Shown here: in pieces, positions 3,121 through 21,950 of the stretch
Layout: every line of letters begins with the position of its first letter
Position numbering within the stretch: the first letter of the stretch is position 1
IMG/VR virus record: IMGVR_UViG_3300033141_001123
Span: 1-43,405 of that record
Source of the DNA: a virus
Length of the DNA stretch: 43,405 bases
Direction: 5' to 3' (one strand)
Made by a program: the position numbers and the translations under genes
The notes under the pieces: generated by a model
The model's input: the letters and a program-made list of their open reading frames with translations, nothing else
Database searches by the model: none
What the model was told of the DNA's origin: nothing

Positions 3121-4959
3121 TCAATCTGGATGCCACACACCCTGCAAAACACGCCCAGGCTGCCGTACATAAAAGGCGGCTGTGCTATGATCCTGACCAG
3201 TCACGCTGAACATAAAGAATCTCTTATCTTTCCCATATGGCTCAAGCTCGTAAACAAAGCGGTGTAAGACTCTGCGCCACTGATTTTCACGCATCAGTAT
3301 TGAGTTATTATCATAATACTCAGGATAGTATACAGACGGGACATTGAAGAAAACCTTGTCACTGAAACTAAGCGCCTTAGCAATCAAAGCCCTTATTTCC
3401 TTTGGCCCAAACCTCTGCAAATTACAACAGAAGATGCAGGCATCAGGTTGTAACCAACCACCACGTAGTATTCCTCGCTTATTCTCAACAAAAATGTTGC
3501 AAGACTTGACAACAAATCCAGTGGTACTTACGGATTGAGTGTCGTCGAGTAATGCAAATACCTTATAGCCAAGGTCTTTTAATTGCTGATGTAGAGTCTT
3601 AGAGCCCAAACCAATATCCCAGATAACCGAACCTTTTGGAAGATTTCTCTGTAGCAGTTCAATAAAAGGCGTGTGTTCCTTTAGCAAGAATCTAGCTGGC
3701 TTCCTGTTATGGCGCGAAGCACTTGTAGTAGGATCAATCATATTGACGATTGACATTAGCTTCTCGGCTGCTTTCTGCGTACTAAACTCATTAGCATACC
3801 ACTTGGCACCACGATAAGCTTTATCGAATGCCTTCTCTCTATTGCGGTAAACATCGCGCATAACATCAATCAGATAATCCCAATCAGCTACGTGCCACGT
3901 ACCACCTAGTGGAGAATCCTCTACGTGGTGTGTGGGAATCGGCCAATTGTACTTGCTGTTTACAAAGTCCAGCATTCCGGTATTAGCAGTAAAGATAGTA
4001 GGCAAACCTGTCGCCATTGCCTCTCTTGGTGGTAATGCGTAACCCTCACCTTTCGACGGAAAGACCATAGCATCCGCGTTGAGCAACCACTCCAACAATC
4101 GATTCGGAAGCCAATCCTCACTTATGATAGTTATGCGTGGATCGTCGAGGTCTGGTAACATATTCTCACCCCAACCGAACAATCCCAAGCGTGTCTTAAA
4201 CTGCATGGTTACTTTTGGATAATCTTTGTGTGGAAATGCACGCTTGAACACTTCCATAAGCTCAAGTGGGGCTTTTCTACCTGTTAAGGAGCCATAGGAA
4301 ACAAATTGGAAACTTTCATCATCTTTTGGTTTCCTACGTGTTGGTTTGAAATACATCTCATTCAGTGCCAACGGACACACCTTTATCGGAACGTTAACAA
4401 AAGATTCAAACGCATTCTTACTGTATTCACACGGTACAACAAGCATATCAACATTATAGCAATCATGCCGCCATTCAGGATGATTGACCAGTGGTTTGTC
4501 CGATTCATACATCGTGAATCCGATTCTGTATGGTGTAGGCAGTTTCTTAAACTCTCCTGGCGTTGCCATACAAATGCCTACACGATAAATATCAGTAAGA
4601 TTTTCGCTGAGCTTTGCGTGTGTAATCTCATCAAGGTTAGTTCTATCTATGAACCAGCACTGCCGCACAAACAAGTCAACATCAAGCTTTATTAACGCCA
4701 AAACCATGTTCTCAGCGGCAGTTCCATAACCATCACCCATACTGAAGGGTGACAGCCAATACAGTGACGTTCTACCATTTTGTTTCCAACGAAAGTCCTC
4801 GCTGTCAAGTATGCCATCAATGTCGGCCATTCTAGCAGTTAACATCCATATTGCATCAGCATAGCTGACCTGGGAAGGAACCAGCAACCATTTTAAAGGT
4901 GGTAGGTGGCTCCCTCCAGGTGCAACCTGCGTAATTGCAGTGATGTTCCGAACACGCAT
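3121..4959 (-). CDS. GT4 glycosyltransferase fused to a methyltransferase-like domain
   Basis: This 612-residue protein has two parts. Residues about 64-405 form a GT-B, GT4-type glycosyltransferase: SMGDGYGTA near the start, SYGSLTGRKAP (221-231), and PSKGEGYALPPREAMATG (301-318), the donor-binding region. Residues about 425-600 look like a SAM-dependent methyltransferase fold: GSVIWDIGLGSK (443-454), with a later FNVPSVYYPEYYDNN segment. The first 60 residues are unassigned. The start is supported by GGGGGAG seven bases upstream. The product may add and cap or methylate a sugar chain. The gene directly follows the major capsid gene, so virion proteins are plausible acceptors. The methyltransferase call is weaker than the GT4 call. 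Confidence 0.8.
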   Translation of the reverse strand: MRVRNITAITQVAPGGSHLPPLKWLLVPSQVSYADAIWMLTARMADIDGILDSEDFRWKQNGRTSLYWLSPFSMGDGYGTAAENMVLALIKLDVDLFVRQCWFIDRTNLDEITHAKLSENLTDIYRVGICMATPGEFKKLPTPYRIGFTMYESDKPLVNHPEWRHDCYNVDMLVVPCEYSKNAFESFVNVPIKVCPLALNEMYFKPTRRKPKDDESFQFVSYGSLTGRKAPLELMEVFKRAFPHKDYPKVTMQFKTRLGLFGWGENMLPDLDDPRITIISEDWLPNRLLEWLLNADAMVFPSKGEGYALPPREAMATGLPTIFTANTGMLDFVNSKYNWPIPTHHVEDSPLGGTWHVADWDYLIDVMRDVYRNREKAFDKAYRGAKWYANEFSTQKAAEKLMSIVNMIDPTTSASRHNRKPARFLLKEHTPFIELLQRNLPKGSVIWDIGLGSKTLHQQLKDLGYKVFALLDDTQSVSTTGFVVKSCNIFVENKRGILRGGWLQPDACIFCCNLQRFGPKEIRALIAKALSFSDKVFFNVPSVYYPEYYDNNSILMRENQWRRVLHRFVYELEPYGKDKRFFMFSVTGQDHSTAAFYVRQPGRVLQGVWHPD

Positions 4960-4990: not shown

Positions 4991-6178
4991 TTACGATGTG
5001 ACAGTAATTGTGGCGTACATGTCCGACACGACCATTTTCTTACCATTTCTGGTACGGATATTTCGCGTCCATTTGTCCTTATTCTCGTAAGCCCCTGGAT
5101 GTGTTGCATCGTTAGGCCCGCGATAGTCTGCATAAACCAATGGCATTGCTGCTAGAGGAATATACGGAGCAAACACGTAGCCAGTATCAATGGTAGTTCT
5201 CGGATACGTTCCCATGATACCCTTTGCGGCAGGAATGTATGGCGTCATATAGATGTCCCAGAAGCCTTTGATGGAACCCATAAGCTGCACACCAGTTGAC
5301 ATTGGGCCAGGTGGAACCATACGCTCAAGTGGTACAAAGTCGGCAGCTTTCATAATAAAACCTGCCAACGTGGTGCCACAGATCACCCAATCTGCATTGC
5401 GAAATCTGTTGTTATAGATCAACATTTGAGCGTCGATCAGCGCATGGAAGATAGTCTCATACCAATCCTTAGCCTTAGTGTAGGCAGCAGGAACAGTCTG
5501 AGACCAATTCACATTACCGGCGCTAGCACCAGCAAGAATTTCATTGAGCATTCTGTGTTCAAGCTCACGTAGAATCTCACTACCAGCTGCTGCAACCAAT
5601 TCAGCACCAACGTCAAGATTCAAAGTACCTCGTGCATCCTCCTGTACTTCAGTAGACCATGTAACACCAAGGATGTCCTTTTCAGCGGTGAGAGTATCCT
5701 TTGTCACAGTCATCTTCATTCGTGCAGGAACAGCGTTCTCCTCAGAATATGAGTAGTCACTGTCAGGTGTCGTAACGTTAGTATTCGGCGTTACGTCCTC
5801 CCGCAAGAAGTCAAGATAGAAAATCTCACCAGTACCACCAGAGCTGAATGGCATAGGTTGAATGGAGGCGATTTTAGAGATGATAAGCTGCGGAAACACA
5901 TCGCGCACGATTGGTAGCGCGTATCGTACTGGCATCGAGACATCCGTAGTAAGCGTCACTTCAGCCCTGTTACCCATAGAACTGGCAATGGACTGATTCT
6001 CAAAGATGACCGCCATTATTCGATGAAGGTGTTCTGGAATCGGCTTCAGTGGATACTTTTTCGTACCACTACCAAGGTAGAACTCCCACTTATCGACAAG
6101 TCCATCAACATAAGCCCTCTGTGCTTCCTCGTACTGTTCAATGGTAGAACCCATCGGCATGATTATGTTAGCACTCAT
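4991..6178 (-). CDS. Major capsid protein, T4 gp23-like
   Basis: This 395-residue protein carries the stretch around residues 88-120, LPIVRDVFPQLI then IQPMPF and GTGEIFYLD, which matches the conserved block of gp23-type capsid proteins (R-x-x-x-P-x-L-I, the QPM motif, then G-x-G-x-I-F). Such proteins adopt the HK97 fold and build the icosahedral shell. It lies directly downstream of the protease-scaffold gene, the canonical order. It is shorter than T4 gp23 (about 520 residues). Two glycosyltransferase genes follow it closely, which raises the possibility that the capsid is glycosylated. Confidence 0.9.
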   Translation of the reverse strand: MSANIIMPMGSTIEQYEEAQRAYVDGLVDKWEFYLGSGTKKYPLKPIPEHLHRIMAVIFENQSIASSMGNRAEVTLTTDVSMPVRYALPIVRDVFPQLIISKIASIQPMPFSSGGTGEIFYLDFLREDVTPNTNVTTPDSDYSYSEENAVPARMKMTVTKDTLTAEKDILGVTWSTEVQEDARGTLNLDVGAELVAAAGSEILRELEHRMLNEILAGASAGNVNWSQTVPAAYTKAKDWYETIFHALIDAQMLIYNNRFRNADWVICGTTLAGFIMKAADFVPLERMVPPGPMSTGVQLMGSIKGFWDIYMTPYIPAAKGIMGTYPRTTIDTGYVFAPYIPLAAMPLVYADYRGPNDATHPGAYENKDKWTRNIRTRNGKKMVVSDMYATITVTS

Positions 6179-7632: not shown

Positions 7633-7818
7633 CTAAACACCTATGAACTGTTTGATTAAACCAAGAGAGACCGCTAGAAAGACAGCACAAACCAACCATT
7701 TGAGCCACTTAATATCATTCTGTACAACACCCAGTTCATGATTGGTTTTTATAATGTGTTCACTAAGCGTTGCCCACCCATCTTTAAACTCCGCTATCTG
7801 TCTTTTACTTATCCACAT
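7633..7818 (-). CDS. Small membrane protein, XhlA-like
   Basis: This 61-residue protein has a helical N-terminal half followed by QNDIKWLKWLVCAVFLAVSLGLIKQF, a single C-terminal membrane segment. Helix, then IKWLKW, then membrane resembles XhlA/hemolysin-associated small phage proteins. I chose ATG at 7818 because a perfect AGGAGG lies six bases upstream. It overlaps the end of the portal gene by 14 bases. Its place between portal and protease is unusual for a lysis protein, so it could instead tether procapsid assembly to the membrane. The function is not established. Confidence 0.55.
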   Translation of the reverse strand: MWISKRQIAEFKDGWATLSEHIIKTNHELGVVQNDIKWLKWLVCAVFLAVSLGLIKQFIGV

Positions 7819-9244
7819 CATCACCCTCCTTTTGACTGTTTGTATTTAATGCAACGTCCTTTTCTATTCCCTCCATTTCGAGTAATTCTTTCTGCGTCAT
7901 CTTCAGGTAGTTACTGCGAATGTACTTATGATCTGCAAGACCAAGCTTCAGAAGCTTCTCGCTTGCATCAGCATAATTTTTCAGCGCCACACTCTCCTCA
8001 ACGTTATCCTCCCAGCTGGGAACAGGCCAAACAACTTTATACTCTATACTATTAGGATCGTACCCCCAAAGCAACAACTGAAGGTTAATGGTGTTTCTAA
8101 CAGATAAGCTCAACATTGACTGCACACGTCTAACAGTGCGAGCAAAACGACGATCCTGTTGTTGTAAAGTTGCCTTAGCATTAATATCACGCTCGATACC
8201 AAGATGCGCCTTTGGAACCTTTAATGACGTGATGATTTTGTTTTGATAATACTCAATGGCCGATAAATTCCAAAAACCCGTATTGCTAGTATCAAGAACC
8301 CTCACGTCAGTCAAACCAGGTACTACCTTGCCACCTCTTTCGTCATAAGATGTTGCTATGAAAACATCCTTGACAACTGAAACTTGCTGCACGCCCTTAG
8401 TGTCTGTAGCGACCTCGCGCGTCTTCAGTGAATGTTTAAAGTCCTCGATAGCCTTTCTAGCCTCTGGCCCTCCTTTACCAGTAGTATCAATGATGAAAAG
8501 CAGACGAGCAAAAGCGCGAGTAAGCCAGTTAATAACAAGGGCTTCCTCCATTGCTTGCAATTTCTTCCATGCTGTACGCGCTGCAAAAAGCAAAGAGCGA
8601 CCATATTTCCTATTACCAGCACGATTCCAACGCATATGATCAATCTGCCACGGATAGAATCCAGCATAGAACTTAGTACCACCATTTATATACTGCTCGA
8701 AAGCCCACTCCCCCTGCTTACTACCAGTCAAGAGAATGCCCTGTTTATCCTCAAGACGTTTCATGGTATTTGCAGGCATATCCATCAGGCGCACGACATT
8801 TAAATCCTTGTCTAGGACACGCTGAATAAAACAGTCGCCATACTTGAGCGCCTGCCTAGCAAACGAATAGGCTTTCTCCGCCCACCTTGTGCGCTTCAAC
8901 ATTAACTCAATGTTTTCTATGAGCGCATCTGGAACATTGGTATATACTACAGTGAACGATTGACCTGCGCCGTGCTCTGCGTTCACAGCGTTATCAGCCA
9001 GAATGTCAAGGGCTGACGAGACTTCATCTACAGTGTCATCCATCTCATCAACGTCAATGTAAATGTTTGCCCGCCGCGTTGAGACGTTATAGAAGTGTTG
9101 CTCCATCATATCGAATGTAACTTCGACAGTACCTATGGCACTTGTTGGCTGTGTCTCAGGGACAAGTGGCGTGTCAAGAATCTTCCTTATTCGTGTCATT
9201 ATTCGCTTAATGAAACCAACCTTCTTTGGCACGTCTACAGTCAT
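7805..9244 (-). CDS. Portal protein, T4 gp20-like
   Basis: This 479-residue protein matches the gp20-like portal family in length and order: IDVDEMDDTVDEVSSALDIL near the N-terminus, FARQALKYGDCFIQRV, and a long helical C-terminal half with KVPKAHLGIERD and NAKATLQQQDRRFARTV. Portals form the dodecameric ring through which DNA enters the head. The gene sits immediately upstream of the protease and capsid genes. Its ATG overlaps the stop of a 25-residue upstream micropeptide (ATGA), suggesting translational coupling. Confidence 0.85.
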   Translation of the reverse strand: MTVDVPKKVGFIKRIMTRIRKILDTPLVPETQPTSAIGTVEVTFDMMEQHFYNVSTRRANIYIDVDEMDDTVDEVSSALDILADNAVNAEHGAGQSFTVVYTNVPDALIENIELMLKRTRWAEKAYSFARQALKYGDCFIQRVLDKDLNVVRLMDMPANTMKRLEDKQGILLTGSKQGEWAFEQYINGGTKFYAGFYPWQIDHMRWNRAGNRKYGRSLLFAARTAWKKLQAMEEALVINWLTRAFARLLFIIDTTGKGGPEARKAIEDFKHSLKTREVATDTKGVQQVSVVKDVFIATSYDERGGKVVPGLTDVRVLDTSNTGFWNLSAIEYYQNKIITSLKVPKAHLGIERDINAKATLQQQDRRFARTVRRVQSMLSLSVRNTINLQLLLWGYDPNSIEYKVVWPVPSWEDNVEESVALKNYADASEKLLKLGLADHKYIRSNYLKMTQKELLEMEGIEKDVALNTNSQKEGDDVDK

Positions 9245-9320: not shown

Positions 9321-10046
9321 TTAACTTCCAGCGTTGAAAATTAGAGTAACAGGAGTTGGCACATGATACACATGCTTTCCATGCTCCCAGTCAATCACTT
9401 TAATCAGGCTGCTGAGATGCTCACCAAAACCAAAATTATTAACCAAGTCGTGCTCTGGCAATGCCATCATATAACCACCAGCCTGAACAGCCTCTTTGAA
9501 CACCATGTCCTCAGAGAAATTATGTCCAACATTTTCTGACCACGGGCCAAACTCATCGTAGATTTCACGGCGCATACAAATGGCGCTACCCACAAAATCC
9601 TGCACTTCATAGAAGTGAGGCTCTTTCTCAAAACACTCTGTAATCAGCTTGTCAGAAAAGTTCACAGGTGGATGCCAATACTTGAACAAACCCAAGCAAC
9701 CTATATTCTCCCAAGCACGCAACAGCCACATTACATGAGACAACCAACCTGGAGAATATTCCAAATCAGCATCGAGCTTCAGCAGAAAGTCACCGCGAGC
9801 AATCTGAAAACCCCTATTGACCTGAATACCAAGTCCCATATTGTGACCGCAGTTAAAAAGTGCCGTTGACACTTTCTTCGCACGAACCAATCCATAGATG
9901 TAGTTCTGTGTTGCTTCGTCACTGCCGTCATCCATGACGATTAGCTCGTATGGCGCTTGTGTGCTCCGAAACATGGACTCCAAACTGCGTTGTAGACTTT
10001 CCTTGCGATTGAACGATAGGACAACCAAACTTGCAAACATGGTCAC
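9321..10046 (-). CDS. Family 2 glycosyltransferase
   Basis: This 241-residue protein has a GT2 GT-A domain: VVLSFNRKESL (8-18), DDGSD (39-43), NMGLGIQVNRGF, and the metal-binding DAD (92-94). GSAICMRREIYDEFGPW and the downstream SEDMV fit the acceptor-side and catalytic-base region. The frame opens with GTG at 10046, which has GAGGGGG seven bases upstream; an in-frame ATG at 10040 is an alternative with a longer spacing. The gene ends the main sugar cluster, next to portal. Donor and acceptor are unknown. Confidence 0.85.
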   Translation of the reverse strand: MTMFASLVVLSFNRKESLQRSLESMFRSTQAPYELIVMDDGSDEATQNYIYGLVRAKKVSTALFNCGHNMGLGIQVNRGFQIARGDFLLKLDADLEYSPGWLSHVMWLLRAWENIGCLGLFKYWHPPVNFSDKLITECFEKEPHFYEVQDFVGSAICMRREIYDEFGPWSENVGHNFSEDMVFKEAVQAGGYMMALPEHDLVNNFGFGEHLSSLIKVIDWEHGKHVYHVPTPVTLIFNAGS

Positions 10047-10058: not shown

Positions 10059-10130
10059 TCAGAAATTTCCATACGGATGTGAAGCATCAGCAACATCTTT
10101 TGTGATGTGTGGCTTGAAAAGTTGTATCAT
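10059..10130 (-). CDS. 23-residue peptide, possible remnant of a DegT-type aminotransferase
   Basis: The frame starts at an ATG that overlaps the stop of the upstream glycosyltransferase (ATGA) and has AGGGA just before it. It encodes MIQLFKPHITKDVADAS then HPYGNF and stops. The first 15 residues resemble the usual beginning of DegT/DnrJ-family sugar aminotransferases (hydrophobic-LFKP-x-I-x-x-x-V-x-x-A). The rest of such an enzyme is absent. It may be a deletion remnant or an independent small peptide. The resemblance is short and could be chance. Confidence 0.3.
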   Translation of the reverse strand: MIQLFKPHITKDVADASHPYGNF

Positions 10131-11062
10131 AATTCCCTGGTCTCTTTCATTGCTTGCTCAAAGCGCACTGCGAACGTGTGTTCTCTCTTTGTACGCATCT
10201 GTGCGCCGTGCTTCAGCATAACGCACCTCGCTGGATTTTTTAACAGGCTGTTTACCTGCATTACAAAATCCCTAGCATCGGTAAACACCACAATCTCATC
10301 GTTTGTAAAGTATTCCCACAATTCTGGACACCTGCTGGAGTCTACCAGTTGTGCACATCCAACCATAGCTTGCATGAAAAGGCGACCATTGGGTGACGAT
10401 GGACGTATTTTATACCTATTAGCATGATCCACGTCGTTCATGCGATGCAAGTTCAGCACAACCTTAGCACCAACAATAGCCGCTATGTACTGTTCTCCTC
10501 CATAGTGTTCCTCTGTTCTTGCCCACGGTGCTGCCTGCTTCCAACCAGACCCAACTAGAAGGACATCGTGCTTTCTCAACTCACTGGAAACCTCTTTAAT
10601 CAGTTTGACTCTACTAGGAAAGGCGTTGCCGACAAAGCAGACATCGCTGTTTATCAGTCTCTTAGGTGTGAGACTAACGGTGGACGGATAGAAACAGGCC
10701 GGAGAATGTATAACTCGCTTTCCAAGAACCCTACTCAAATGCTCTGCCGAGTTGCGATCTGTGTCCCAGAGTAGGTCAACTTCTCTACCGGCGCGTTCAA
10801 TAATATCAATCTCATATGGACTCTCTAATGACCACAAGATTGACACATTACCGAGAGAGCGTGCCACGCTGGTTGGAATGTCACCGTGCCAAGGATGATA
10901 AAAGATCACATAGTCAAAATGCCTGTGCATGACTTCAGGTAAACTACCCGCATGGACAACCGTGGCCGAGTATTTTGACATCATGTTTAGACCATTCATT
11001 ATATTCTCAATGAATATAGGTGTGTCCCACACCACGATAAGTATGTCGGTTATTGCCTTCAC
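10127..11062 (-). CDS. CgeB-like glycosyltransferase
   Basis: This 311-residue protein resembles the CgeB/Glyco_trans_1_2 group of GT-B enzymes: an N-terminal half with YVIFYHPW and ILWSLESPYE, the segment VCFVGNAFPSR, and near the C-terminus YKIRPSSPNGRLFMQAMVGCAQL followed by FTNDEIVVFTD, where the conserved glycine-rich donor loop and acidic pocket lie. CgeB relatives modify the surface of spores or cells with sugars. The start is a GTG whose last bases form the TGA stop of the preceding gene. Donor and acceptor are unknown. Confidence 0.75.
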   Translation of the reverse strand: MKAITDILIVVWDTPIFIENIMNGLNMMSKYSATVVHAGSLPEVMHRHFDYVIFYHPWHGDIPTSVARSLGNVSILWSLESPYEIDIIERAGREVDLLWDTDRNSAEHLSRVLGKRVIHSPACFYPSTVSLTPKRLINSDVCFVGNAFPSRVKLIKEVSSELRKHDVLLVGSGWKQAAPWARTEEHYGGEQYIAAIVGAKVVLNLHRMNDVDHANRYKIRPSSPNGRLFMQAMVGCAQLVDSSRCPELWEYFTNDEIVVFTDARDFVMQVNSLLKNPARCVMLKHGAQMRTKREHTFAVRFEQAMKETREL

Positions 11063-11781
11063 AACAGGTCGCCTTCCTCGCGCAATCGCTTAAAGGCAAC
11101 GCTGCGATCTATTTGTCTACACATTGAAGTGTGGGGGGAATCTTTGTAGATACCAAGCTCTACCGGAATGTGATGGAAAGCGTGCCCCTGCGCTAAGATA
11201 CTATCAAAAAACACTCCATCAGCACATCCCCAGAACCTTGGCTCCTCAGGCCAACCATTGCCAAACACCTCTCTTCGATGCGCTACCTGATTGTGATCTA
11301 ACAGCCCACCAGCATTTAGATTAACAGTACCTCGAATATGTCGAACATCGTGCATTTCAGTTACTCTGCCAGTTTTCCAATCAACCATGCAAGTGCGATG
11401 ACGAAAATAGGCAGCGTAAACTTCTGGATGCTCATCAAAGTAATCACAGACCACCTCAAAACATCTAGGATAAAACTCATTGTCATCACATAAGTATAGG
11501 ATTATGTCACCCTTGGTCATGGGAAATGACTTGTTGATGTTCACTGCAAATCTAGTAAGCTTGGGGCGATCCTCTTCTGAAACATCAGAAGACCACCATG
11601 AGCATCGCGGATCACCATCAAGGAGATCATGTAAAATAGCCCTAACACCTGGCCCAGAATTATCATCGGCGACCACTAACTGCCAGTTTTTCTCTGTCTG
11701 AACCAGAATGGACTTGATACTAGCCCTTAACAGTGCTGGGCGATTGTAGGATGTTAAGATAACACTACATCTTGGCTTCAT
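11059..11781 (-). CDS. Family 2 glycosyltransferase
   Basis: This 240-residue protein has the GT2 opening SVILTSYNRPALLRASI (6-22), VADDNSG (38-43 region), and the metal site LCDDNEF. The form DDN in place of DxD is unusual but seen in the family. I chose ATG at 11781 because AAGGAGAG lies just upstream and the start is one base from the stop of the epimerase gene. A longer frame reaching 12081 would read through the epimerase gene in another frame and is rejected. It belongs to the coupled sugar cluster. Confidence 0.85.
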   Translation of the reverse strand: MKPRCSVILTSYNRPALLRASIKSILVQTEKNWQLVVADDNSGPGVRAILHDLLDGDPRCSWWSSDVSEEDRPKLTRFAVNINKSFPMTKGDIILYLCDDNEFYPRCFEVVCDYFDEHPEVYAAYFRHRTCMVDWKTGRVTEMHDVRHIRGTVNLNAGGLLDHNQVAHRREVFGNGWPEEPRFWGCADGVFFDSILAQGHAFHHIPVELGIYKDSPHTSMCRQIDRSVAFKRLREEGDLL

Positions 11782-11782
11782 C

Positions 11783-12604
11783 TTACTCTCCTTGGAGTGG
11801 TATGGCACGCTTAAACTCAGGGTGATAATTAAGATATTTTTGTGCACGCGAGATGTCAACAAGTGTCTCCTGACCTGTAGTAAAGTTGGGTACATCAGGC
11901 CATGCGCTTTTAATCCACTTTTGAATGTCAACGTATTTAGCAGGAGTAGTTGGTGTAGCAATATTACACACCACATAACTTTTAACCTTCTCTGTTTCCA
12001 CCGCAAGGCCAAAAGCCTCCTGTAAATCCACCCAGAGGATGTAAGCGTAAAGCCAATCAGCCTGCCTACCATGTGGAGCATTAAAGTAATTGTCTACATA
12101 TGGTGTATGTGGCCAAATCCGCAGACCGATAATGACCATATCTGTTGCATTGGCAAAATTCTTGGCCCACTTGTCAGCGGCGATTTTAGTCTTTGTGTAC
12201 ACATGCAGTGTATCCTCTGGTGGTGGAGGAGTATCCTCGTGTAACGGAAAGCGCGTCGGCGTCAAATTTCCATGCGTTGGGCCGTATACAGCATCAGAGC
12301 TTGCGTATATGAGTTTTGGAACATTAGCGTAAGATGCAGTTCGCAATACTGTACGAAAACCATCCCCATTTATACGTTCATAGCTGTATGGATTGGGTCT
12401 ACGGCCTGGGCCACCAATTGCGGCAAGATGAATGACAGCATCCTTTCCTTGCATCCTCTTGAAGAGTTTTGGCACGTCGAAAACATCATCACCACTCTTG
12501 TAGTCATAAACGTCAATATTAAAACCGAAACGCCTTTTGTCCAAAAGGCCAGGGCGCACTATTCCACCTATTTCACCACTACCGCCTGTCATTAACACAT
12601 TCAT
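11783..12604 (-). CDS. NAD-dependent nucleotide-sugar epimerase/dehydratase (extended SDR)
   Basis: This 273-residue protein has the Rossmann NAD-binding motif GGSGEIG at residues 7-13, the HLAAIGGPG segment, SSDAVYG (102-108) and the catalytic pair Tyr136 and Lys140 in YTKTK. These define the extended short-chain dehydrogenase family that epimerises or dehydrates UDP/GDP/dTDP sugars. It is somewhat shorter than typical members (about 310-340). I chose the ATG at 12604, which overlaps the stop of the preceding gene (ATGA); one at 12616 would add MGNA. It probably makes a donor for the neighbouring transferases. The exact substrate cannot be read from sequence. Confidence 0.85.
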   Translation of the reverse strand: MNVLMTGGSGEIGGIVRPGLLDKRRFGFNIDVYDYKSGDDVFDVPKLFKRMQGKDAVIHLAAIGGPGRRPNPYSYERINGDGFRTVLRTASYANVPKLIYASSDAVYGPTHGNLTPTRFPLHEDTPPPPEDTLHVYTKTKIAADKWAKNFANATDMVIIGLRIWPHTPYVDNYFNAPHGRQADWLYAYILWVDLQEAFGLAVETEKVKSYVVCNIATPTTPAKYVDIQKWIKSAWPDVPNFTTGQETLVDISRAQKYLNYHPEFKRAIPLQGE

Positions 12605-13449
12605 CGCGTTTCCCATCCTTTATAACTCCCTGGAGGTCTCCCGTCGTTAAATCTACCAATGTGAAAGAATCGCTCAAACCTCTCAACCTCGACCTGACTC
12701 TGCTTAATGATGAACGCCAAATTGCGCGGATGATAAAGATGTCCGCCGATTATCCGCCTGTCAAAACTAATTGAGTGGCCTGCAAAGTACGCAGCCAAAC
12801 CTGATGCGCCATCTTCGACAAGACCAGCACTAAGCTCGTTCCAAAAACCGCCAGTGTCCCAGAAAATGTCTTTAGGCCAGCAAATGTTACCACTGAAAGC
12901 GCCGAGCAACATCTCTCTGGTGTGAAAGACCTCGTGTGGTTCCACGGCGTTAAAAGTAGCCATGCGGTAGTCACGACAAATACTGTGTGTCGGTGGTATA
13001 CTAATCTTACGTGGTGGGAGTTTCTCGGCAATGATGTCATCAAAACGCTGTTCGACATCACTGGTAGTGATGTGCATAGGTGTAAGCCAGTGATAGATGC
13101 CAGCTATGATGCGATTTGGATTCAAATTTAAATCCTCCACATACAATTCCAGAACATCGGAACGCAGGATCACATCACTGTCGGCGAAAACGTAAAAGTC
13201 ATGACGCGCGAGTTGGGCACCCACATTTCGGGGTTGTATGCCTACGCCTGGAACAAATTTCGGTATTCTAACGTAGTGAAGATCAAGTCCATGAAATCTG
13301 CGAATCAATCTCTCTATATCTACACCACCACCATCGTTAATCACAATGACCTCGAAATCCTTGAATGTCTGACATGTAAGGCTAGTCAAGACCAGTCGCA
13401 GATTTTCAAGTCTATCAGATGCGACAGGAATAATAACGCTTAGTCTCAT
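12601..13449 (-). CDS. Family 2 glycosyltransferase
   Basis: This 282-residue protein has the GT2 start RLSVIIPVASDR, the motif INDGGG (37-42), PRNVGAQLA and the metal site ADSD (89-92). A later GLVEDGASGLAAYFAG segment provides the catalytic acidic residues. The start at 13449 overlaps the stop of the upstream gene in an ATGA. An earlier start at 13497 would overlap that gene by some 50 bases and is less likely. It lies in the tightly coupled part of the sugar operon. Confidence 0.85.
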   Translation of the reverse strand: MRLSVIIPVASDRLENLRLVLTSLTCQTFKDFEVIVINDGGGVDIERLIRRFHGLDLHYVRIPKFVPGVGIQPRNVGAQLARHDFYVFADSDVILRSDVLELYVEDLNLNPNRIIAGIYHWLTPMHITTSDVEQRFDDIIAEKLPPRKISIPPTHSICRDYRMATFNAVEPHEVFHTREMLLGAFSGNICWPKDIFWDTGGFWNELSAGLVEDGASGLAAYFAGHSISFDRRIIGGHLYHPRNLAFIIKQSQVEVERFERFFHIGRFNDGRPPGSYKGWETR

Positions 13450-14417
13450 GTGAATAATCCTAACCAGAGCAACATCGCCTCTCGTAGCTTTTTCCAATAA
13501 ACACCAGTTGGAAAGGAAATTTTATGGACAATCTCGTGGTAGCACTCAATTGGTTCACTACTGCTAAGAACAACATTATCGACCAGATGCCACAACTCCT
13601 CGTTGATGGCAATGCCAGGAGCCTCTTTGATTAAATTATTGAACACGTTAGACTTGCGTATGTGTTCGACAATCGGCTCACCAACAGACACAGACAAACG
13701 TAGATGGTCACAGATTCTCTTTACAAACAAACCAGCCCAAATGTCGCCAAAACGATCATAAGGATAATCTCGCCCCATCAACAAAAAATACATCGCTGGT
13801 GCCAGCTTGGATTTAAAAGCCAAGTTCATGCCCGACATGGGAAAGTATCTACTAAATGGAATGACCTGCTGTATAGGACTAAATCTATCTGTATGTGTCA
13901 GCCTCGACTGCACAAGCTGAGTTGACGCATCTATGTCTGGAACACGTGACCAAAGCCCAACATTTAGAACAACCTCACATTCTCGATCAGTATTGAAATA
14001 TGGCACTCCACGTGTCACAGGGCCAGCGCCCACTGTTTTCCAGGCGCGGGCGACAGCTCGTGTCTGTAGCGCCTTCCAATGTGTGTCTAAGAAATTGGCA
14101 CTGTCAGGCCAACAATCATCGTCAAGTGTCACAATCATATCCGGTTTCATAAGCCAAGCACGGTAGTAACCAAACGAACGGATACAGTCGGTGCGTCTAG
14201 GAATAATCCAAGCATGTTCGCCTAATATCTTATCAATCTCAGTCCAACTGAAGTGTAGAACATTTGAGTGATTAATACTAAAAGTACATTCGGCATGATC
14301 CTCCATCACGATTACTTGATGCTGCTTAAATTCGTCTTGCCACACATCGAGGAACAAGCCTATACATTCCTCTCGAATCGAAGGGACTACAATAACAGCC
14401 TTGTACGTATTAGACAT
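13446..14417 (-). CDS. Reversibly glycosylated polypeptide family protein (UDP-arabinopyranose mutase-like, GT75)
   Basis: This 323-residue protein resembles the RGP/UAM family over most of its length. It has RSFGYYRAWL (80-89) then LDDDCWPD (98-105), matching the R-x-F-GY and DDDC signature. GVPYFNTDRE leads to VGLWSRVPDIDASTQLV, matching the family's GLW-x-x-xPD-x-DA-x-TQLV. FPMSGMNLAF (192-201), AMYFLLMG and RFGDIWAGLFVKRICDHL (222-239) follow. In plants these enzymes interconvert UDP-arabinopyranose and UDP-arabinofuranose and become self-glycosylated on an arginine; Arg145 appears to align with that residue. It is a surprising gene for a phage and suggests a pentofuranose or related donor. 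Confidence 0.8.
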   Translation of the reverse strand: MSNTYKAVIVVPSIREECIGLFLDVWQDEFKQHQVIVMEDHAECTFSINHSNVLHFSWTEIDKILGEHAWIIPRRTDCIRSFGYYRAWLMKPDMIVTLDDDCWPDSANFLDTHWKALQTRAVARAWKTVGAGPVTRGVPYFNTDRECEVVLNVGLWSRVPDIDASTQLVQSRLTHTDRFSPIQQVIPFSRYFPMSGMNLAFKSKLAPAMYFLLMGRDYPYDRFGDIWAGLFVKRICDHLRLSVSVGEPIVEHIRKSNVFNNLIKEAPGIAINEELWHLVDNVVLSSSEPIECYHEIVHKISFPTGVYWKKLREAMLLWLGLFT

Positions 14418-15285
14418 CTGGCTCTTGTCCTATTGGTAAAATTCCCATTACACCTTTCCTTTCCCAAACGTAGAGACCAACCTTATGTAAATCATGTTTT
14501 GCTGCAATATACTGAATGTTCTTATTACATGAGGCTTGATTAACTGCCTGATCCCTATCGTGATAGATGTGATAGCCGTGAACTAAGCTTGTAAAAATCA
14601 CAGGATGGCCAGCCAACTGTGCACGAATACCTATCTCACAGTCTTCACCACCGTGCCCGACAAAACTCTCATCGAAACTGCCAAGTGTTTCAAATATCAC
14701 CCTCGGAAACATCAAAACACCAGTGTACAAATAGGCAGCAAACCCCTCCCACTGAACTTCGCCATCGAAAATTGAAGGTTGTGCTTTATAGCGGGGATCG
14801 ATGCCAACGATACCCTTCGGATTGCCACCAAATTGCGCCGGAGGAAGTGTGCCAGCAACTATCTTGTCCCAGTTATGATAAACATCGTATGGGCGAATGT
14901 TCATTGGTAACATCCAATCGTAACGGCAGGCAATAATAACCGTTGGATTTGCACGAGCAATGTTACTTAGATGAGCAAGTGATTTTGGTGCTAGGAGGAT
15001 GTCAGAATCTATGAATAGGAAATTACGTCCACGTGCAATAGCGCAACCCCGATTTCGTGTAAGTGCGGTTCTATTACCAGCATGTGGTAGCCAGCAATAT
15101 TGCAACGCGAATTTATCCTGAAACTCAAACATAACCTCAAGTGGACTATCTGTAGAGCCGTCGTCAGAGACAATCACCTCGATTGACTCAGCATAATGTG
15201 CACGTGTTTTATCCAGAGCACAAAGCGTGAGATACAGGTTCTCGCGTCTGTTATAAACTGGAATGATTACTGAGAATTCAAACAT
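14410..15285 (-). CDS. Family 2 glycosyltransferase with C-terminal acceptor domain
   Basis: This 291-residue protein has SVIIPVYNRRENL, SDDGSTDS (40-47), ALTRNRGCAIARG and the metal site FIDSD. FVGHGGEDCEIGIRAQLAG fits the C-terminal Glyco_transf_7C-like motif that supplies the catalytic base. I chose the ATG at 15285, which has AGGAGA eight bases upstream. It overlaps the next gene by eight bases. It is one of the most complete GT2 enzymes in the cluster. Confidence 0.88.
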   Translation of the reverse strand: MFEFSVIIPVYNRRENLYLTLCALDKTRAHYAESIEVIVSDDGSTDSPLEVMFEFQDKFALQYCWLPHAGNRTALTRNRGCAIARGRNFLFIDSDILLAPKSLAHLSNIARANPTVIIACRYDWMLPMNIRPYDVYHNWDKIVAGTLPPAQFGGNPKGIVGIDPRYKAQPSIFDGEVQWEGFAAYLYTGVLMFPRVIFETLGSFDESFVGHGGEDCEIGIRAQLAGHPVIFTSLVHGYHIYHDRDQAVNQASCNKNIQYIAAKHDLHKVGLYVWERKGVMGILPIGQEPDV

Positions 15286-15296
15286 CAATCATTCTC

Positions 15297-16082
15297 CTAT
15301 GTGAACAGATGCTCATCTGAACCCTGATTACCCCATATTTTTATCAAGCGATCTCTGTTACGCTTGCTAGAAAACATGGCAGCCTCCTCACCTGATCCAT
15401 GCTCATAATGTAGAAGAGTAGCTTTGGGCTGATACACAACTTTCCAACCCGCTTTTCGCGCTCTCCAACAGAAATCAATGTCCTCGAATTGTCCCAGAAT
15501 ATACGCTTCATCAAGACCACCCAATTCATCCCACATCTTTCGACGAATGAGAACACACGCAAAAGTTACAGCATTCAATTCTCGGCGCTTGTTGGCTGCT
15601 GGTAGATCAGATGGTTGACCACCATATATGTGATACGGAAGGCCCTCGCTGTTGCGTGCGACTCCGGCGTGCTGAATTGAGCCACCAAGACTATAACCTT
15701 TTTGGGGCGGATACATCAATTTAGCACCGACAATGCCAACGTCCTCATTGTTGTCAACCTCTTCGAGCATATAAGTTAGCCACGAGAAGCCGGCCTCGGT
15801 GTCAGAGTTAAGTAGACATATATATTTGGTGTCGGTTTTCAAAACAGCATGATTGCAAATGCCAGCAAAGCCCTTGCGTGTACGCAGCAAAATAACATGA
15901 TACTTGTGTTCAAGCTCATGCAAATACTCGCGCATTACAATCTCCGAACTGCGATCATCAATGATGATTAGTTTGTAGGGCGCAAGTGTGTTACGTTCAA
16001 GTGACGATAAACACCGGCTCAAAAAATCCGATGCGTTATAGGTGGGAATAATGATCGTGACTGATGGTTGCTTCTCGCTCAC
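15297..16082 (-). CDS. Family 2 glycosyltransferase, rhamnosyltransferase-like
   Basis: This 261-residue protein has VTIIIPTYNASDFL, IDDRSS (41-46), RKGFAGICNHAV and LNSDTE as metal site. GQFEDIDFCWRARKAGWKVVY is the typical ED...R-x-G-W segment of WbbL/RfbN-like GT2 enzymes that act on polysaccharides. It opens with GTG after a GAGGA site and overlaps the stop of the preceding gene (GTGA). It is the first gene of the main sugar cluster in transcription order. The actual donor is unknown. Confidence 0.88.
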   Translation of the reverse strand: MSEKQPSVTIIIPTYNASDFLSRCLSSLERNTLAPYKLIIIDDRSSEIVMREYLHELEHKYHVILLRTRKGFAGICNHAVLKTDTKYICLLNSDTEAGFSWLTYMLEEVDNNEDVGIVGAKLMYPPQKGYSLGGSIQHAGVARNSEGLPYHIYGGQPSDLPAANKRRELNAVTFACVLIRRKMWDELGGLDEAYILGQFEDIDFCWRARKAGWKVVYQPKATLLHYEHGSGEEAAMFSSKRNRDRLIKIWGNQGSDEHLFT

Positions 16083-17586: not shown

Positions 17587-19401
17587 CTAATAAAACATCT
17601 GAGGTACAAATGCCGGTTCAGGCAGAGGTTCAAGACCATTTTCCATACGCTGGCTGTTGATTTTCTCACGAGATAATCTATCATGCTCAGCATAGGGATC
17701 AGGCCGACTAATTGGTATGTAATCGTATGACATAGATCGCTGACCAAAGTTGTGTGGTTCAGTTTGCATAATTTCAGCACCAACTACAGCTGACCAATCT
17801 CGTGCTATCGTGCGGCAACCCTCCAAAGCATCAGGCCCATCGTCATGTGCTCCAATCGGAAACTCTGTCAGTTGCTGTTTCAGTAAATCTTGACCGCCCT
17901 CAAGTAGCAACAAGTAACCGTTCTCCAAGTCTGGCTGTAAGGATTGAATGCGAAGTTCTTTGTTGCTGTGTTGATTAACCTGAATGAATGGAATGTTAGT
18001 CCCAGCCCTCATACTAGCACGCGCGGACTCTGATGCGAAGAAAGCCTGAAATTGTGTGCTCTCAATTCCCCAACGCGAGAACATGTACGTGTTAGCATAC
18101 TCGTTCTGATCGTTCATTATAACTGTTGGAGTACGCCTTGACAAGTCCGCTTCAAGAACGAACATTTGTTTGCTAGGCGCTTTAGCAATGACGACTATTG
18201 CGGAGTAGTCGGAAGTTGATGTTCTACCTAATGATGGATCTGTAAAGCCGAATATCTTACAATCTACAAGTCGAACAGATGCGCCATCTTTGTTTGGAAT
18301 TAACCAAAGTTCAGGCACGCCATCTTCATTAGGCTTAAACACTTTTCTGTATGTGTACCAACGATTGAAGATACATCTTGACGGGTCACGAGGATTGTTC
18401 ATTAACTCGGTATAGAAGGACACATCACCTTCAGATACTTTAGTCACCATAAGATCATAGTAGGAATAACCTTCAGGCCACGCGCTTACAGCACCGCGCA
18501 ACATCTCCTCTCTGTTTAGTTCAAAGAACGCACGTGCTGTTTCATCTTTATGCTCATCGCTAAGGTCAGTCAACAATTCACGCCATGCGTCCCAAAGAGC
18601 CTGATTTTCAGCCCATGAAACCACAGCCTGGAAGACTTTATTCCTAAACATCGGATTGGCAACCACACGCTTCAACAAACAGTCAAAGTGTAGGAAGTTA
18701 CCAACGATGAAGATTTTAGTGTCACTCCAGCCTGCACGTATGACAGATTGTGTCAACCATGAGTATGTAGTCTCACGCTGTGTCTTAGATTGTACACTTT
18801 TCAAGTTCTCAATATCATCAAGAACAATGAGGTCGGGCCTGAACTGAAGATACTTGCGCCCGCGTATCTTCATGCCCGAACCTAGTGCCTCAATACGGAC
18901 ATGATTAGCAAGCTCAACCTCTGAACGCTGCCAGACGCGCCCTTTCATGTCCCCGAAATCTTCACGTATACGCTCGTTGTTTTCAATCTCACTTTGTAGA
19001 TTGGCAAGCTGCTGTTTCGCCTGATCGTGTGAATCTGAGACGATTAAGATAAAGCGTCGCTTCTTTAGCAGGCTACACCACAGGGGAAGTGCTAATGTAA
19101 TAGTGGTTGTTTTGCCAAAACCACGAGGCCATACAACTGCGCTGTAGATTTTCCCCTTCGTGCGCATTACCTCCTCTATCTCACTGACAATCTCGTGGTG
19201 CATAAGACCAAATGGTAAATAGAAATGATGCTTAAGATAGAACTTCATAAAGAACTCGAAGTCAACTTCAGACAGCGCAAGACGAACCAACCTGCTGTCA
19301 ATGGCCTCATTAATGAGACCAGTAGCATCAAGCTGCTCAATCGTGAAGTTGCGCATAAGTGCGGCGCGAATTAGCGTGAGATCACTGGATGTTAGTTGCA
19401 T
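17587..19401 (-). CDS. terL: Terminase large subunit
   Basis: This 604-residue packaging motor protein has an ATPase domain with WPRGFGKTTT as Walker A (91-100) and LIVLDDIEN as Walker B plus catalytic glutamate (191-199). A C-terminal RNase H-like nuclease follows, with GFTDPSLG and DYSAIVVI providing acidic residues and HDDGPDALEG near the end. I chose the ATG at 19401: AGGA lies seven bases upstream and the protein then starts MQLTSSDLTL; the frame extends further upstream but without a ribosome site. The gene follows the small-terminase-like gene and precedes the phosphoesterase. Confidence 0.9.
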   Translation of the reverse strand: MQLTSSDLTLIRAALMRNFTIEQLDATGLINEAIDSRLVRLALSEVDFEFFMKFYLKHHFYLPFGLMHHEIVSEIEEVMRTKGKIYSAVVWPRGFGKTTTITLALPLWCSLLKKRRFILIVSDSHDQAKQQLANLQSEIENNERIREDFGDMKGRVWQRSEVELANHVRIEALGSGMKIRGRKYLQFRPDLIVLDDIENLKSVQSKTQRETTYSWLTQSVIRAGWSDTKIFIVGNFLHFDCLLKRVVANPMFRNKVFQAVVSWAENQALWDAWRELLTDLSDEHKDETARAFFELNREEMLRGAVSAWPEGYSYYDLMVTKVSEGDVSFYTELMNNPRDPSRCIFNRWYTYRKVFKPNEDGVPELWLIPNKDGASVRLVDCKIFGFTDPSLGRTSTSDYSAIVVIAKAPSKQMFVLEADLSRRTPTVIMNDQNEYANTYMFSRWGIESTQFQAFFASESARASMRAGTNIPFIQVNQHSNKELRIQSLQPDLENGYLLLLEGGQDLLKQQLTEFPIGAHDDGPDALEGCRTIARDWSAVVGAEIMQTEPHNFGQRSMSYDYIPISRPDPYAEHDRLSREKINSQRMENGLEPLPEPAFVPQMFY

Positions 19402-19402
19402 A

Positions 19403-19459
19403 TTATGTCCTAATGGCACAGTGAAACACGAAGAGCACCAGTAGCAGCACAATGCTCAT
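19403..19459 (-). CDS. 18-residue hydrophobic micropeptide before terL
   Basis: The frame encodes 18 residues starting MSIVLLLVLFVFHCAIRT and is essentially one membrane segment. It begins four bases after the stop of the small-terminase-like gene, with AAAGGA about eleven bases upstream, and its TAA ends one base before the terL start codon. It fits the pattern of the two other micropeptides in this operon (1623-1691 and 9241-9318). It may be a leader for coupled translation of terL or a real peptide. Confidence 0.35.
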   Translation of the reverse strand: MSIVLLLVLFVFHCAIRT

Positions 19460-19463
19460 AACA

Positions 19464-20159
19464 TCACACATCCTTTTCTGTAACATCGACGGGTGATGCG
19501 TCGATTACATCAACTGGTTGACTTGTGCGGCGCTCTTTTGCTGGCATGATCTCTAATAGTGCTCTAATGGTTGGTATCTCACTTGGGGGTGTTCCTGCTG
19601 GTAGTAAGTTTTGCATCGGTACTGTATCAGCAGCAAAGAAGCCTAACCCCTTTTGAACTGCGAGATACTGCTTGAGCAAATTCCAATACTCGTTTAGCTG
19701 TTGATCCACAATAGCCGCTAATGGGTGTGTAACGCTTTCTATGAATAGCGCGGTGTCCAAACGTTCAGCCTTCAATTTGAGTAGACGAGCGAGTTCGCCA
19801 ATAGCATCAACTTCAATATCAAGCTCTTTGAACTTGCTCTGAAGATAGGTGATTGGCAGGAAATCGGACTCATTTAATTGCGCACGAAACTCCTTGATTG
19901 CAGCAACTGGGATATTAACATCAGCCGTTTGCATCAAGTAAACGTGCGTGCGTTCAGCTGACCAGTTGTTAACGAGACAATTAAAGACAGTCTGTTTGTG
20001 CTCGCTGTTCTCAATTGCGTGTACATTCGTCTGTGGTGCACCAGGTGTTCCACGCCGCTTCAGGGCATCGAGAAACTTCTTATGCTCTTCAGCTAAGTCA
20101 GCAGTTGTATCTATCTTTTCTGGCACTTTGGGTGCTTCAGGCACTTTAGTATTTGTCAT
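19464..20159 (-). CDS. Terminase small subunit-like protein
   Basis: This 231-residue protein is predicted helical and is the first gene of the late operon, directly upstream of terL, where a small terminase is expected. The N-terminus has a Pro/Lys-rich run (VPEAPKVPEK); FNCLVNNWSAERTHVYLMQTADVNIPVAAIKEF could form a helix-turn-helix for DNA recognition; the middle helix LARLLKLKAERLDTALFIESV could oligomerise. AAGGAG lies nine bases before the ATG. The call rests on position and general pattern; a direct family match is not visible. Confidence 0.5.
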   Translation of the reverse strand: MTNTKVPEAPKVPEKIDTTADLAEEHKKFLDALKRRGTPGAPQTNVHAIENSEHKQTVFNCLVNNWSAERTHVYLMQTADVNIPVAAIKEFRAQLNESDFLPITYLQSKFKELDIEVDAIGELARLLKLKAERLDTALFIESVTHPLAAIVDQQLNEYWNLLKQYLAVQKGLGFFAADTVPMQNLLPAGTPPSEIPTIRALLEIMPAKERRTSQPVDVIDASPVDVTEKDV

Positions 20160-20177
20160 TTAGAACTCCTTACGCCT

Positions 20178-20206
20178 ATTTTATCACAGAAAAGTATATA
20201 CGTCAA
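20178..20206 (-). promoter_or_regulatory. Sigma-70-type promoter for the late (minus) operon
   Basis: Reading the minus strand, TTGACG (20206-20201) is followed after exactly 17 bases by TAAAAT (20183-20178). This is five of six bases of each consensus hexamer at ideal spacing. Transcription would start near 20171, almost at the ribosome site of the first late gene, giving a very short leader. Confidence 0.5.
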
Positions 20207-20253
20207 AACCAAGTCCTGGGGTAGTCGGCTGGATACTTTCAGTCTGACATATG

Positions 20254-20271
20254 TTGTCACGAATGCGACAA
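20254..20271. repeat. Inverted repeat TTGTC-N8-GACAA
   Basis: TTGTC at 20254-20258 is mirrored by GACAA at 20267-20271 with eight bases between. It lies upstream of the minus-strand promoter within the divergent control region and could be an operator. The sequence alone does not show binding. Confidence 0.3.
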
Positions 20272-20351
20272 TTTTTGGTAACGTTGATATTTTAGCAGAA
20301 AAGTGTGAGAGATAGGCTCCCCCTGTTTTCATGGCATACCACATAATGTTC

Positions 20352-20413
20352 CGCAGCCGTGGCCCGTGACCTGATCCGGTCGGTGGCCTCGGACGCCACC
20401 GCGAGACGGCGCG
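20352..20413. ncRNA. GC-rich three-way-junction fold in the divergent control region
   Basis: A 62-base GC-rich block inside an AT-rich intergenic region folds as a closed three-way junction. CGC(A)GCCGT (20352-20360) pairs with ACGGCGCG (20406-20413), leaving one bulged A. Inside are GACC-TGATCC-GGTC (20368-20381) and GGTGGC-CTCGGAC-GCCACC (20382-20400). The fold is possible on either strand. It may be a noncoding RNA, a 5' leader element or a terminator separating the two operons. No known RNA family was recognised. Confidence 0.4.
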
Positions 20414-20450
20414 AACACTGAAAGGTTAGCTGACCGTAGCACTTTACATT

Positions 20451-20460
20451 AGCATATGCT
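20451..20460. promoter_or_regulatory. Perfect 10-base palindrome AGCATATGCT
   Basis: A perfect palindrome lies in the control region about 55 bases upstream of the plus-strand promoter. It is a candidate operator half-site pair for a dimeric regulator. A palindrome of this size can arise by chance. Confidence 0.25.
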
Positions 20461-20514
20461 CATAGAATTGACAACACTTGACGGCAATTGGCAGCAGTCA
20501 TTTTGCGATATGTG

Positions 20515-20543
20515 TTGACACTTGCGGCGATCAGCTATACAAT
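20515..20543 (+). promoter_or_regulatory. Strong sigma-70-type promoter for the early (plus) genes
   Basis: TTGACA at 20515-20520 matches the -35 consensus exactly and is followed after 17 bases by TACAAT at 20538-20543, a five-of-six -10 match. It drives toward the first plus-strand gene at 20623. Additional TTGAC motifs at 20468 and 20478 lack good -10 partners and may be remnants or binding sites. Confidence 0.7.
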
Positions 20544-20566
20544 TGACTCAAGGTTCTCGAGGAACT

Positions 20567-20590
20567 GCCGATACTAGTGATAGTACCGGC
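20567..20590 (+). promoter_or_regulatory. 5' leader hairpin with GTGA loop
   Basis: GCCGATACTA pairs with TAGTACCGGC, a ten-base stem with one A-C mismatch, closed by a GTGA tetraloop (GNRA class in RNA). It begins about 20 bases downstream of the expected transcription start of the early promoter. It probably stabilises the transcript or its 5' end; there is no T-run, so it is not a terminator. Confidence 0.5.
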
Positions 20591-20622
20591 AACACCGACA
20601 ACACAAGCAAAGGGGGACTGAT

Positions 20623-20814
20623 ATGACAAACAAGTTTGAAAGTCGATGCGCCAGCCTTGATCTTGCGCAGTTGCGCAAGCTGTCAAGGCAGATTTATCAC
20701 AAGCTACGGCTAAGGCCGCAATCAAAGCGGCTGAACACAAAACACAACATAGTCTATCACTATATTGTGTTGCGCCGTGATCAGCAGCAGCGAACACAAG
20801 CAAAGGGGGACTGA
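20623..20814 (+). CDS. Small basic early protein, unrecognised
   Basis: This 63-residue protein starts MTNKFESRCASLDLAQ and is strongly basic throughout, ending QQQRTQAKGD. It is the first gene behind the early promoter. The ribosome site AAGGGGGA sits in the sequence ACACAAGCAAAGGGGGACTG, which is repeated almost exactly before the next gene. No family is recognised; the charge suggests nucleic-acid or host-protein binding. Confidence 0.5.
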   Translation: MTNKFESRCASLDLAQLRKLSRQIYHKLRLRPQSKRLNTKHNIVYHYIVLRRDQQQRTQAKGD

Positions 20815-20990
20815 TGCAAACAATCAAAGCGTGCGCGGGGCTACAAGTACAAGTAGTTCCACACAAGCGTACTTGGCAAGCAACGCTGGACATACACAAG
20901 TGTATGTTCTGCAATGAACGCCACGATTGCATGATTGCAAATGCAGTGGCGAAACGTCAAACAAAGGAGACACATAATGACACAGGATGA
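20814..20990 (+). CDS. Small Cys-containing early protein, unrecognised
   Basis: This 58-residue protein starts MQTIKACAGLQVQV. KCMFCNERHDC (29-39) has C-x2-C and a later H/C that could bind zinc. The ATG overlaps the stop of the preceding gene (TGATG) and has the repeated leader with AAGGGGGA nine bases upstream. It overlaps the start of the next gene. It is short but carries every sign of translation seen in its neighbours. Confidence 0.5.
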   Translation: MQTIKACAGLQVQVVPHKRTWQATLDIHKCMFCNERHDCMIANAVAKRQTKETHNDTG

Positions 20991-21468
20991 GCAGATTGAT
21001 CGCGCGTTCAGAGCGTTTGCACTCGAACAAAGTTTGCACGTAGAGGATACAGTCGATGCTGCGTTCAGTGACATACAAGTAGTTTGCGTCGATCCTGCAA
21101 TGCTCGACGCTATCATAGAGCAAGCGCAGGTTGAGTATGTCAATCAGCTGTATCGCGGCGTTGAGCCGTGGACGCTCACGGAGAGGAGTGCTAACGTGAC
21201 AGGCAAGATATATCTTGAGACAAGCGACATACACGTGTATGTGTGCGTGGAGGAGGGCAAGGAGGGCAAGGCGGACGGGCACTACTCTCTTTGCCACGTG
21301 GTGGACATAGAGCAAGTTCCACGGCTCGCGCTCACAAATCGTCTCGCTTGCACGTTAGAAGAGCGTGTGCTGGCAGACGCGCGAGACGCGCTGGACTTCT
21401 TTGACTTCTGCAACGCGCGCAGCGCGCGCACGATACTGATGGAGGATAGCATGTATTTGGATGCATAA
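20977..21468 (+). CDS. Hypothetical early protein
   Basis: This 163-residue acidic protein starts MTQDEQIDRAFRAFAL. An AAAGGAG site lies eight bases upstream; the frame extends back to 20935 but with no ribosome site. No motif is recognised. The last third (about 21340-21430) is rich in GCGCGC runs, giving higher GC than surrounding genes. It ends just before a structured RNA fold. Confidence 0.55.
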   Translation: MTQDEQIDRAFRAFALEQSLHVEDTVDAAFSDIQVVCVDPAMLDAIIEQAQVEYVNQLYRGVEPWTLTERSANVTGKIYLETSDIHVYVCVEEGKEGKADGHYSLCHVVDIEQVPRLALTNRLACTLEERVLADARDALDFFDFCNARSARTILMEDSMYLDA

Positions 21469-21492
21469 TCAACAAAGTCCGACAACTTAATA

Positions 21493-21541
21493 GCCCGCCG
21501 CCGTTGAGCGGCCTGGGGTGGTGCAAGTCCACTCGGCGGGC
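21493..21541 (+). ncRNA. Compact three-way-junction RNA fold
   Basis: In 49 bases, GCCCGCCG (21493-21500) pairs perfectly with CGGCGGGC (21534-21541). Enclosed are CCG-TTGAG-CGG (21501-21511) and GTGG-TGCAAGT-CCAC (21518-21532). It lies between two early genes, 32 bases before the next start codon, in a region with no reading frame. It could be a leader regulating the next gene or a processed small RNA. No known riboswitch or ribozyme core was recognised. Confidence 0.5.
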
Positions 21542-21572
21542 ATGGGGACACACACAAGCAAAGGAGGTTACC

Positions 21573-21896: not shown

Positions 21897-21950
21897 CACT
21901 ATCGGCGTTCACCTCCATTTTCACACACACACACACAAAGGAGACACACA

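Follow-up and report, generated by a model that had tools for sequence, protein, structure and literature searches.

The virus record IMGVR_UViG_3300033141_001123 encodes a full-length, well-conserved member of the Pfam reversibly glycosylated polypeptide (RGP) family, CAZy family GT75. The protein is likely to be a metal-dependent, flavin-free NDP-pyranose/NDP-furanose mutase that supplies a furanosyl donor to the GT2 glycosyltransferases of the phage. Its gene lies in the window (the whole analysed stretch of 43,405 nucleotides, from a linear and maybe incomplete record of 58,972 b) and reads 14417→13446 on the minus strand, with an ATG start, 323 codons and a TGA stop. The first-pass annotation had placed an RGP/UDP-arabinose mutase-like protein at exactly these coordinates, leaving the strand unstated, and all the conserved blocks it quoted are present: DDDC (residues 99-102), GLWSRVPDIDASTQLV (154-169), FPMSGMNLAF (192-201) and WAG...ICDHL (227-239). 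Membership of the family is evidenced by a PF03214 match to residues 9-320 (137.4 bits, E 8.7e-40, cut-off 23.8), and a six-frame search of the whole record returned the same single match. DDDC and R136, whose loss had been named together with a missing HMM hit as grounds for rejecting the assignment, are both kept in the 71-sequence alignment. No family for this protein was found in PHROGs or NCBIfam. Its solved relatives by phmmer are MtdL (1.6e-25) and rice UAM2, 8cid (3.2e-18).

The gene belongs to a sugar block (16082 to 9321) of five GT2 genes, one GT1-type gene, one SDR gene and the RGP gene, located between terminase and portal (Table 1).

Table 1. Sugar-related genes and head genes around the RGP gene, with the evidence for each
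Feature	Coordinates	Strand	Evidence and remarks
GT2 glycosyltransferase, 202 aa	2528..3136	-	PF00535 3.1e-17
GT4-type glycosyltransferase, 612 aa, beside capsid gene	3121..4959	-	PF00534 4.4e-9; phrog_2170 8e-32
gp23-like major capsid protein	4991..6178	-	PF07068 3.5e-24
T4-like portal protein, downstream border of main sugar block	7805..9244	-	PF07230 4.5e-32
GT2 glycosyltransferase	9321..10046	-	PF00535 7.9e-21
GT1-type glycosyltransferase	10127..11062	-	PF13524 4.9e-21
GT2 glycosyltransferase	11059..12081	-	PF00535 3.4e-19
Short extended SDR, nucleotide-sugar epimerase/dehydratase-like	11783..12616	-	PF01370 5.4e-16
GT2 glycosyltransferase	12601..13449	-	PF00535 1.1e-10; longer mechanical ORF starts 13497
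GT75/RGP, NDP-pyranose mutase-like	13446..14417	-	PF03214, MtdL phmmer, residues, AF2 fold
GT2 glycosyltransferase	14410..15288	-	PF00535 8.6e-18
GT2 glycosyltransferase	15297..16082	-	PF00535 1.5e-21
Terminase large subunit, upstream border	17587..19452	-	PF17289 4e-5; tblastn annotated phage terminases E ~1e-99

At its start the RGP gene has 8 nt (ATGTCTAA) in common with the stop of the upstream GT2 gene, and at its stop it has 4 nt (ATGA) in common with the ATG start of the downstream GT2 gene. The SDR is the only PF01370 match in the record, which holds six GT2 matches, and NCBIfam gives it weak, generic SDR matches only. The true start of the GT2 gene at 11059..12081 is probably inside the frame, because its GT domain begins near residue 103. 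The GT2 protein bordering the portal gene matches the GlfT1 model at E 9e-4 only, and none of the neighbouring glycosyltransferases is demonstrably a furanosyltransferase. The FAD-type UGM family (PF03275) has no match in the record. The GT4-type and GT2 pair lies outside the main block, between the gp23-like capsid gene and an adaptor gene, so the head module is interspersed with glycosyltransferase genes. The same gene order, from terminase through portal, is found in a sister contig (L002). Between the two phages the RGP protein is 74% identical in amino acids, with dN of 0.17 and dS saturated near 3, a comparison that points to strong purifying selection.

The head genes are mosaic: the capsid and portal proteins are T4-like, the closest named capsid matches being jumbo phages (about 24%), whereas the terminase finds its best matches among those of Mu/B3-type and Faecalibacterium phages (32-39%). 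Beyond the terminase gene, the region 20000-22000 has a G+C content of 0.52 against about 0.45 elsewhere, contains many overlapping frames, with no tRNA found, and marks the change of transcription from the minus to the plus strand. A perfect 8-base tandem repeat, ATGATATA (3.5 copies, 23455-23482), lies past this strand switch.

To compare active-site residues, the query and its phage and bacterial relatives (71 sequences in all) were aligned with MtdL and 8cid; the roles and mutants of MtdL residues are those of PMC9937993. Kept in the phage protein are D77 (MtdL D87), R80 (R90), the metal motif D99-D100-D101 (D109-D111), R136 (R159), D161 (D195), R222 (R257), D225 (D260), H252 (H287) and R254 (R289). 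R136 corresponds to the glycosylated arginine, R158 in OsUAM1, and H252 and R222 to the Mn and phosphate ligands of active members. R136, D161, M197, D225 and H252 are identical in 71/71 sequences, and D101 is likewise invariant. MtdL S228 and Q229 are replaced by G196 and M197, Gly196 occurring in nearly all of the sequences; the AtRGP2 equivalent of Ser228 is also a glycine, Gly216 (PMC9937993). As judged from this alignment, the catalytic residues mapped in MtdL are all kept, except for substitutions common to nearly all relatives. Two points speak against a mutase: Gln229 is required in MtdL (PMC9937993), although methionine stands here in all relatives compared, and certain plant members of GT75 lack activity. 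The inactive AtRGP5 no longer has the equivalents of His287 and Arg257, and OsUAM2 is listed without UAM or RGP activity (PMC9937993); the structure 8cid, titled Oryza sativa UAM 2, carries other residues at both positions, whereas the phage protein keeps both.

The predicted fold is consistent with this assignment. An AlphaFold2 model based on 56 aligned sequences (pLDDT 95.4, pTM 0.93) agrees with a GT-A domain having the GT75 core and C-terminal helices. The structure comparison proposed in the first-pass annotation, performed with VIA-align, matched the model to MtdL with GDP-fucose (Z 33.7, rmsd 2.4 Å, 293 of 323 residues) and to rice UAM2 (Z 32.5, 3.0 Å, 300 residues), with Z of about 16 or less for all other GT-A enzymes.

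Following the scheme proposed for MtdL (PMC9937993), the diphosphate of the nucleotide sugar would be bound through Mn2+ (held by Asp101 and His252), Arg222 and Arg254. Arg136 would then attack the anomeric carbon, forming a short-lived adduct between arginine and sugar; the ring would open and re-close with the help of Asp225 and Asp161, and the furanosyl unit would be returned to the nucleotide. The NDP-sugar probably comes from the pool of the host, perhaps after adjustment by the SDR of the phage. At least one of the GT2 enzymes encoded by the overlapping genes would probably receive the furanosyl donor and may use it to build a glycan, either on proteins of the virion or at the surface of the host.

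The mutase-like RGP identity given in the first-pass annotation thus stands on sequence, residues and fold, while its UDP-arabinose/pentofuranose substrate is not established. The sugar-pocket pair is Thr76-Asp77 in the phage protein (MtdL positions 86-87) and in most rows of its bacterial clade. This pair matters, because MtdL D87S is inactive and AtRGP2 S91D abolishes mutase activity; MtdL Ser86-Asp87 corresponds to Asp-Ser in active plant enzymes (PMC9937993). The plant-type Asp-Ser pair is absent from the phage protein, and its Thr76-Asp77 is therefore evidence against a plant-type UDP-Ara pocket. The guanine-contacting Thr13 and Asn42 of MtdL are replaced by P12, as in plant RGPs, and A42, so that two of three guanine-selectivity positions differ; these two were placed by motif, because residue 81 was the first that the tool alignment to MtdL covered. 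The T13P mutant of MtdL has a GDP affinity about 28-fold lower (PMC9937993), and GDP is therefore not favoured either. For the donor, the balance tips slightly towards a uridine nucleotide, either UDP-galactose or UDP-arabinose.

Gene contexts of homologues bear on the same question. In a bacterial relative with 54% identity and the same TDC motif (L020), the SDR gene ahead of the mutase gene overlaps it, and its product most resembles UDP-glucose 4-epimerase, which leans to a UDP-sugar. In a Patescibacteria locus of TSA type (L028, 5122-9023), a UDP-glucuronate-decarboxylase-like SDR, a UDP-glucose 4-epimerase-like SDR and the GT75 gene stand in a row, plausibly a UDP-L-arabinofuranose route in a reduced genome. 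Given the differing contexts and pocket types of these two loci, the GT75 family probably covers several donors. A rule assigning Ser77 to UDP-Ara and Asp77 to other sugars was dropped: neighbours do not sort the pocket types cleanly, because one locus with a plant-like DSA motif (L042) has a GDP-fucose-synthase-like gene 1.6 kb away on the other strand. On that viral contig (L042, 7440-8435) the GT75 gene is accompanied by one for a near relative of GDP-L-fucose synthase (308 bits), which suggests that certain phages produce deoxyhexose donors themselves.

Two narrower forms of the mutase reading follow from these data. It is possible, if doubtful, that the enzyme is specifically a UDP-L-arabinopyranose mutase forming UDP-L-arabinofuranose. 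The fold shared with rice UAM2, the plant-like P12 together with A42, and the decarboxylase-like and 4-epimerase-like SDRs adjoining the Patescibacteria homologue, which would make UDP-L-Ara, all fit this form, but that homologue is of a different type and the Thr-Asp pair is the kind of change that inactivates AtRGP2. Moreover, no UDP-glucuronate decarboxylase is recognisable in the phage record, where PF01370 finds a single SDR of uncertain type; as to linked UDP-xylose synthase and 4-epimerase genes, the maybe incomplete record offers this one SDR only, and host genes could supply UDP-Ara. An MtdL-like GDP-hexose mutase, converting GDP-L-fucose or GDP-L-galactose to the furanose form, is unlikely. 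MtdL is the best match both by sequence and by structure, and Asp77 corresponds to the aspartate essential in MtdL; however, the altered guanine-selectivity positions, the lack of any match of the single SDR to GDP-mannose dehydratase or fucose synthase models, and the epimerase-like SDR overlapping the gene of the close bacterial relative all weigh against this form.

A more distant alternative is that the protein is no mutase, acting instead as a self-glycosylating primer or sugar carrier, or as a genuine glycosyltransferase that modifies an external acceptor. The GT-A fold and membership of GT75 would allow this, and plant RGPs autoglycosylate the same arginine; with UDP-glucose, AtRGP2 shows transferase activity and no other (PMC9937993). 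It is improbable nevertheless, with the residues required for the mutase reaction kept and autoglycosylation being itself a step of the proposed mutase cycle.

In the tree, the query and its sister phage fall within a 23-row set of which 17 rows are bacterial (support 97/87), with L025 nearest to them (88/86). The nearest relatives are bacterial, from surface-polysaccharide loci, and not plant. Transfer from plants is ruled out, because the query groups with bacterial sequences. A single viral clade is ruled out as well: on well-supported branches the viral rows call for three or more changes of label, each a gain or a loss. Read most simply, the gene moved several times between bacteria and phages, the direction of these moves being inferred. 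The species genomes contain 23 matching loci, with identities up to 56%. The bacterial homologues sit among GT2 genes, SDR genes and a Wzt/ABC exporter, and of 69 loci, 14 have a nucleotide-sugar SDR no further than 1.5 kb from the GT75 gene, in each case on its strand. As to the host, a TerL search of 301 Chloroflexota genomes, run without a positive control, gave no match, and searches of named phages with TerL and capsid returned only distant relatives with mixed hosts. The bacterial ancestry and the metagenomic record could also fit a host gene that is decaying or carried as a passenger, of no use to the phage, but the intact frame, the overlaps with its neighbours, and the synteny and purifying selection shared with the sister phage make this highly improbable.

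RGPs are already named among phage proteins in databases, and GT75 is not rare in viruses. INPHARED holds one relative only, from a 595-kb uncultured phage, while IMG/VR contains at least 51 matching loci, a lower bound because the scan uses short peptide patterns. Among the IMG/VR records with relatives, a PF03237 terminase is present in 16 of 50 and a GT2 in 35 of 50. A BFVD entry from an uncultured Caudovirales phage is titled "Reversibly glycosylated polypeptide", and phage GT75 in soil has been mentioned (PMC12016548). The view that such a protein is unusual for a virus is weakened accordingly; a literature search covering few subscription papers found no report of a characterised viral RGP. 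The first-pass annotation is partly supported: right in kind, too specific as to substrate, and overstated as to viral rarity.

A close known counterpart is MtdL of Marinactinospora thermotolerans, a GT75 GDP-L-fucose/L-galactose mutase (PDB 7xpr-7xpv, 7yua), which shares the fold, the metal motif, the catalytic Arg and Asp residues and the Asp at position 87. It differs in sequence (about 29% identity), in the T13, N42, S228 and Q229 positions described above, and in serving antibiotic biosynthesis, whereas the phage protein sits in a sugar operon. The family is best known from plants, as had been remarked, which holds for the literature; the phage protein itself nests among bacterial proteins. 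With plant UAMs/RGPs (OsUAM1, AtRGP1-3 and the solved rice UAM2) it shares the Pfam family, fold and catalytic arginine, but it is only about 25% identical to UAM2, has Thr-Asp in place of the Asp-Ser pair, and possesses the Mn and phosphate ligands that UAM2 lacks. Uncharacterised bacterial RGPs from Chloroflexota, Planctomycetota and Acidobacteriota MAGs (L035, L020 and L014, for example) are closer, at up to 56% identity, with the TDC motif and with GT2 and SDR genes alongside as in the phage; unlike the phage gene, they lie on chromosomal-looking contigs with an exporter, and no phage structural genes were seen nearby. The FAD-dependent GLF and the Campylobacter UDP-L-arabinopyranose mutase HS:15.16 (PMC10615251) belong to the same chemistry class but are flavoproteins of another family.

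The position among head genes suggests virion glycosylation, for which mycobacteriophages provide a precedent of virion modification by phage glycosyltransferases (Freeman 2023, as cited in PMC11256854); modification of the host surface is an equally open destination. Phage RB69, with its arabinosyl-hmC, is a precedent for a phage-encoded glycosyltransferase using an unusual sugar, and no mutase is mentioned there (PMC6024577). DNA modification as in RB69 is less likely here, because the genes lie outside the replication region. Only tentatively can the full scheme be put forward, in which an SDR-GT75-GT2 cassette within a head-gene operon makes a furanosyl donor for a furanose glycan on the virion, the protein being the first viral pyranose/furanose mutase and its Thr-Asp pocket and non-guanine contacts marking an undescribed GT75 specificity.

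Few routes lead to furanose sugars, and the characterised GT75 enzymes are limited to a handful (plant UAMs, MtdL and Hyg20). The phage and bacterial GT75 proteins form a large branch with a different substrate pocket and linkage to SDR and GT2 genes, and this branch therefore offers candidates for new donor specificities. The gene set described here, within a head-gene sugar operon, is a little-described setting for a known family. A furanosyl glycan on the virion, or a host surface altered by the phage, could, if true, affect adsorption, competing phages and defence.
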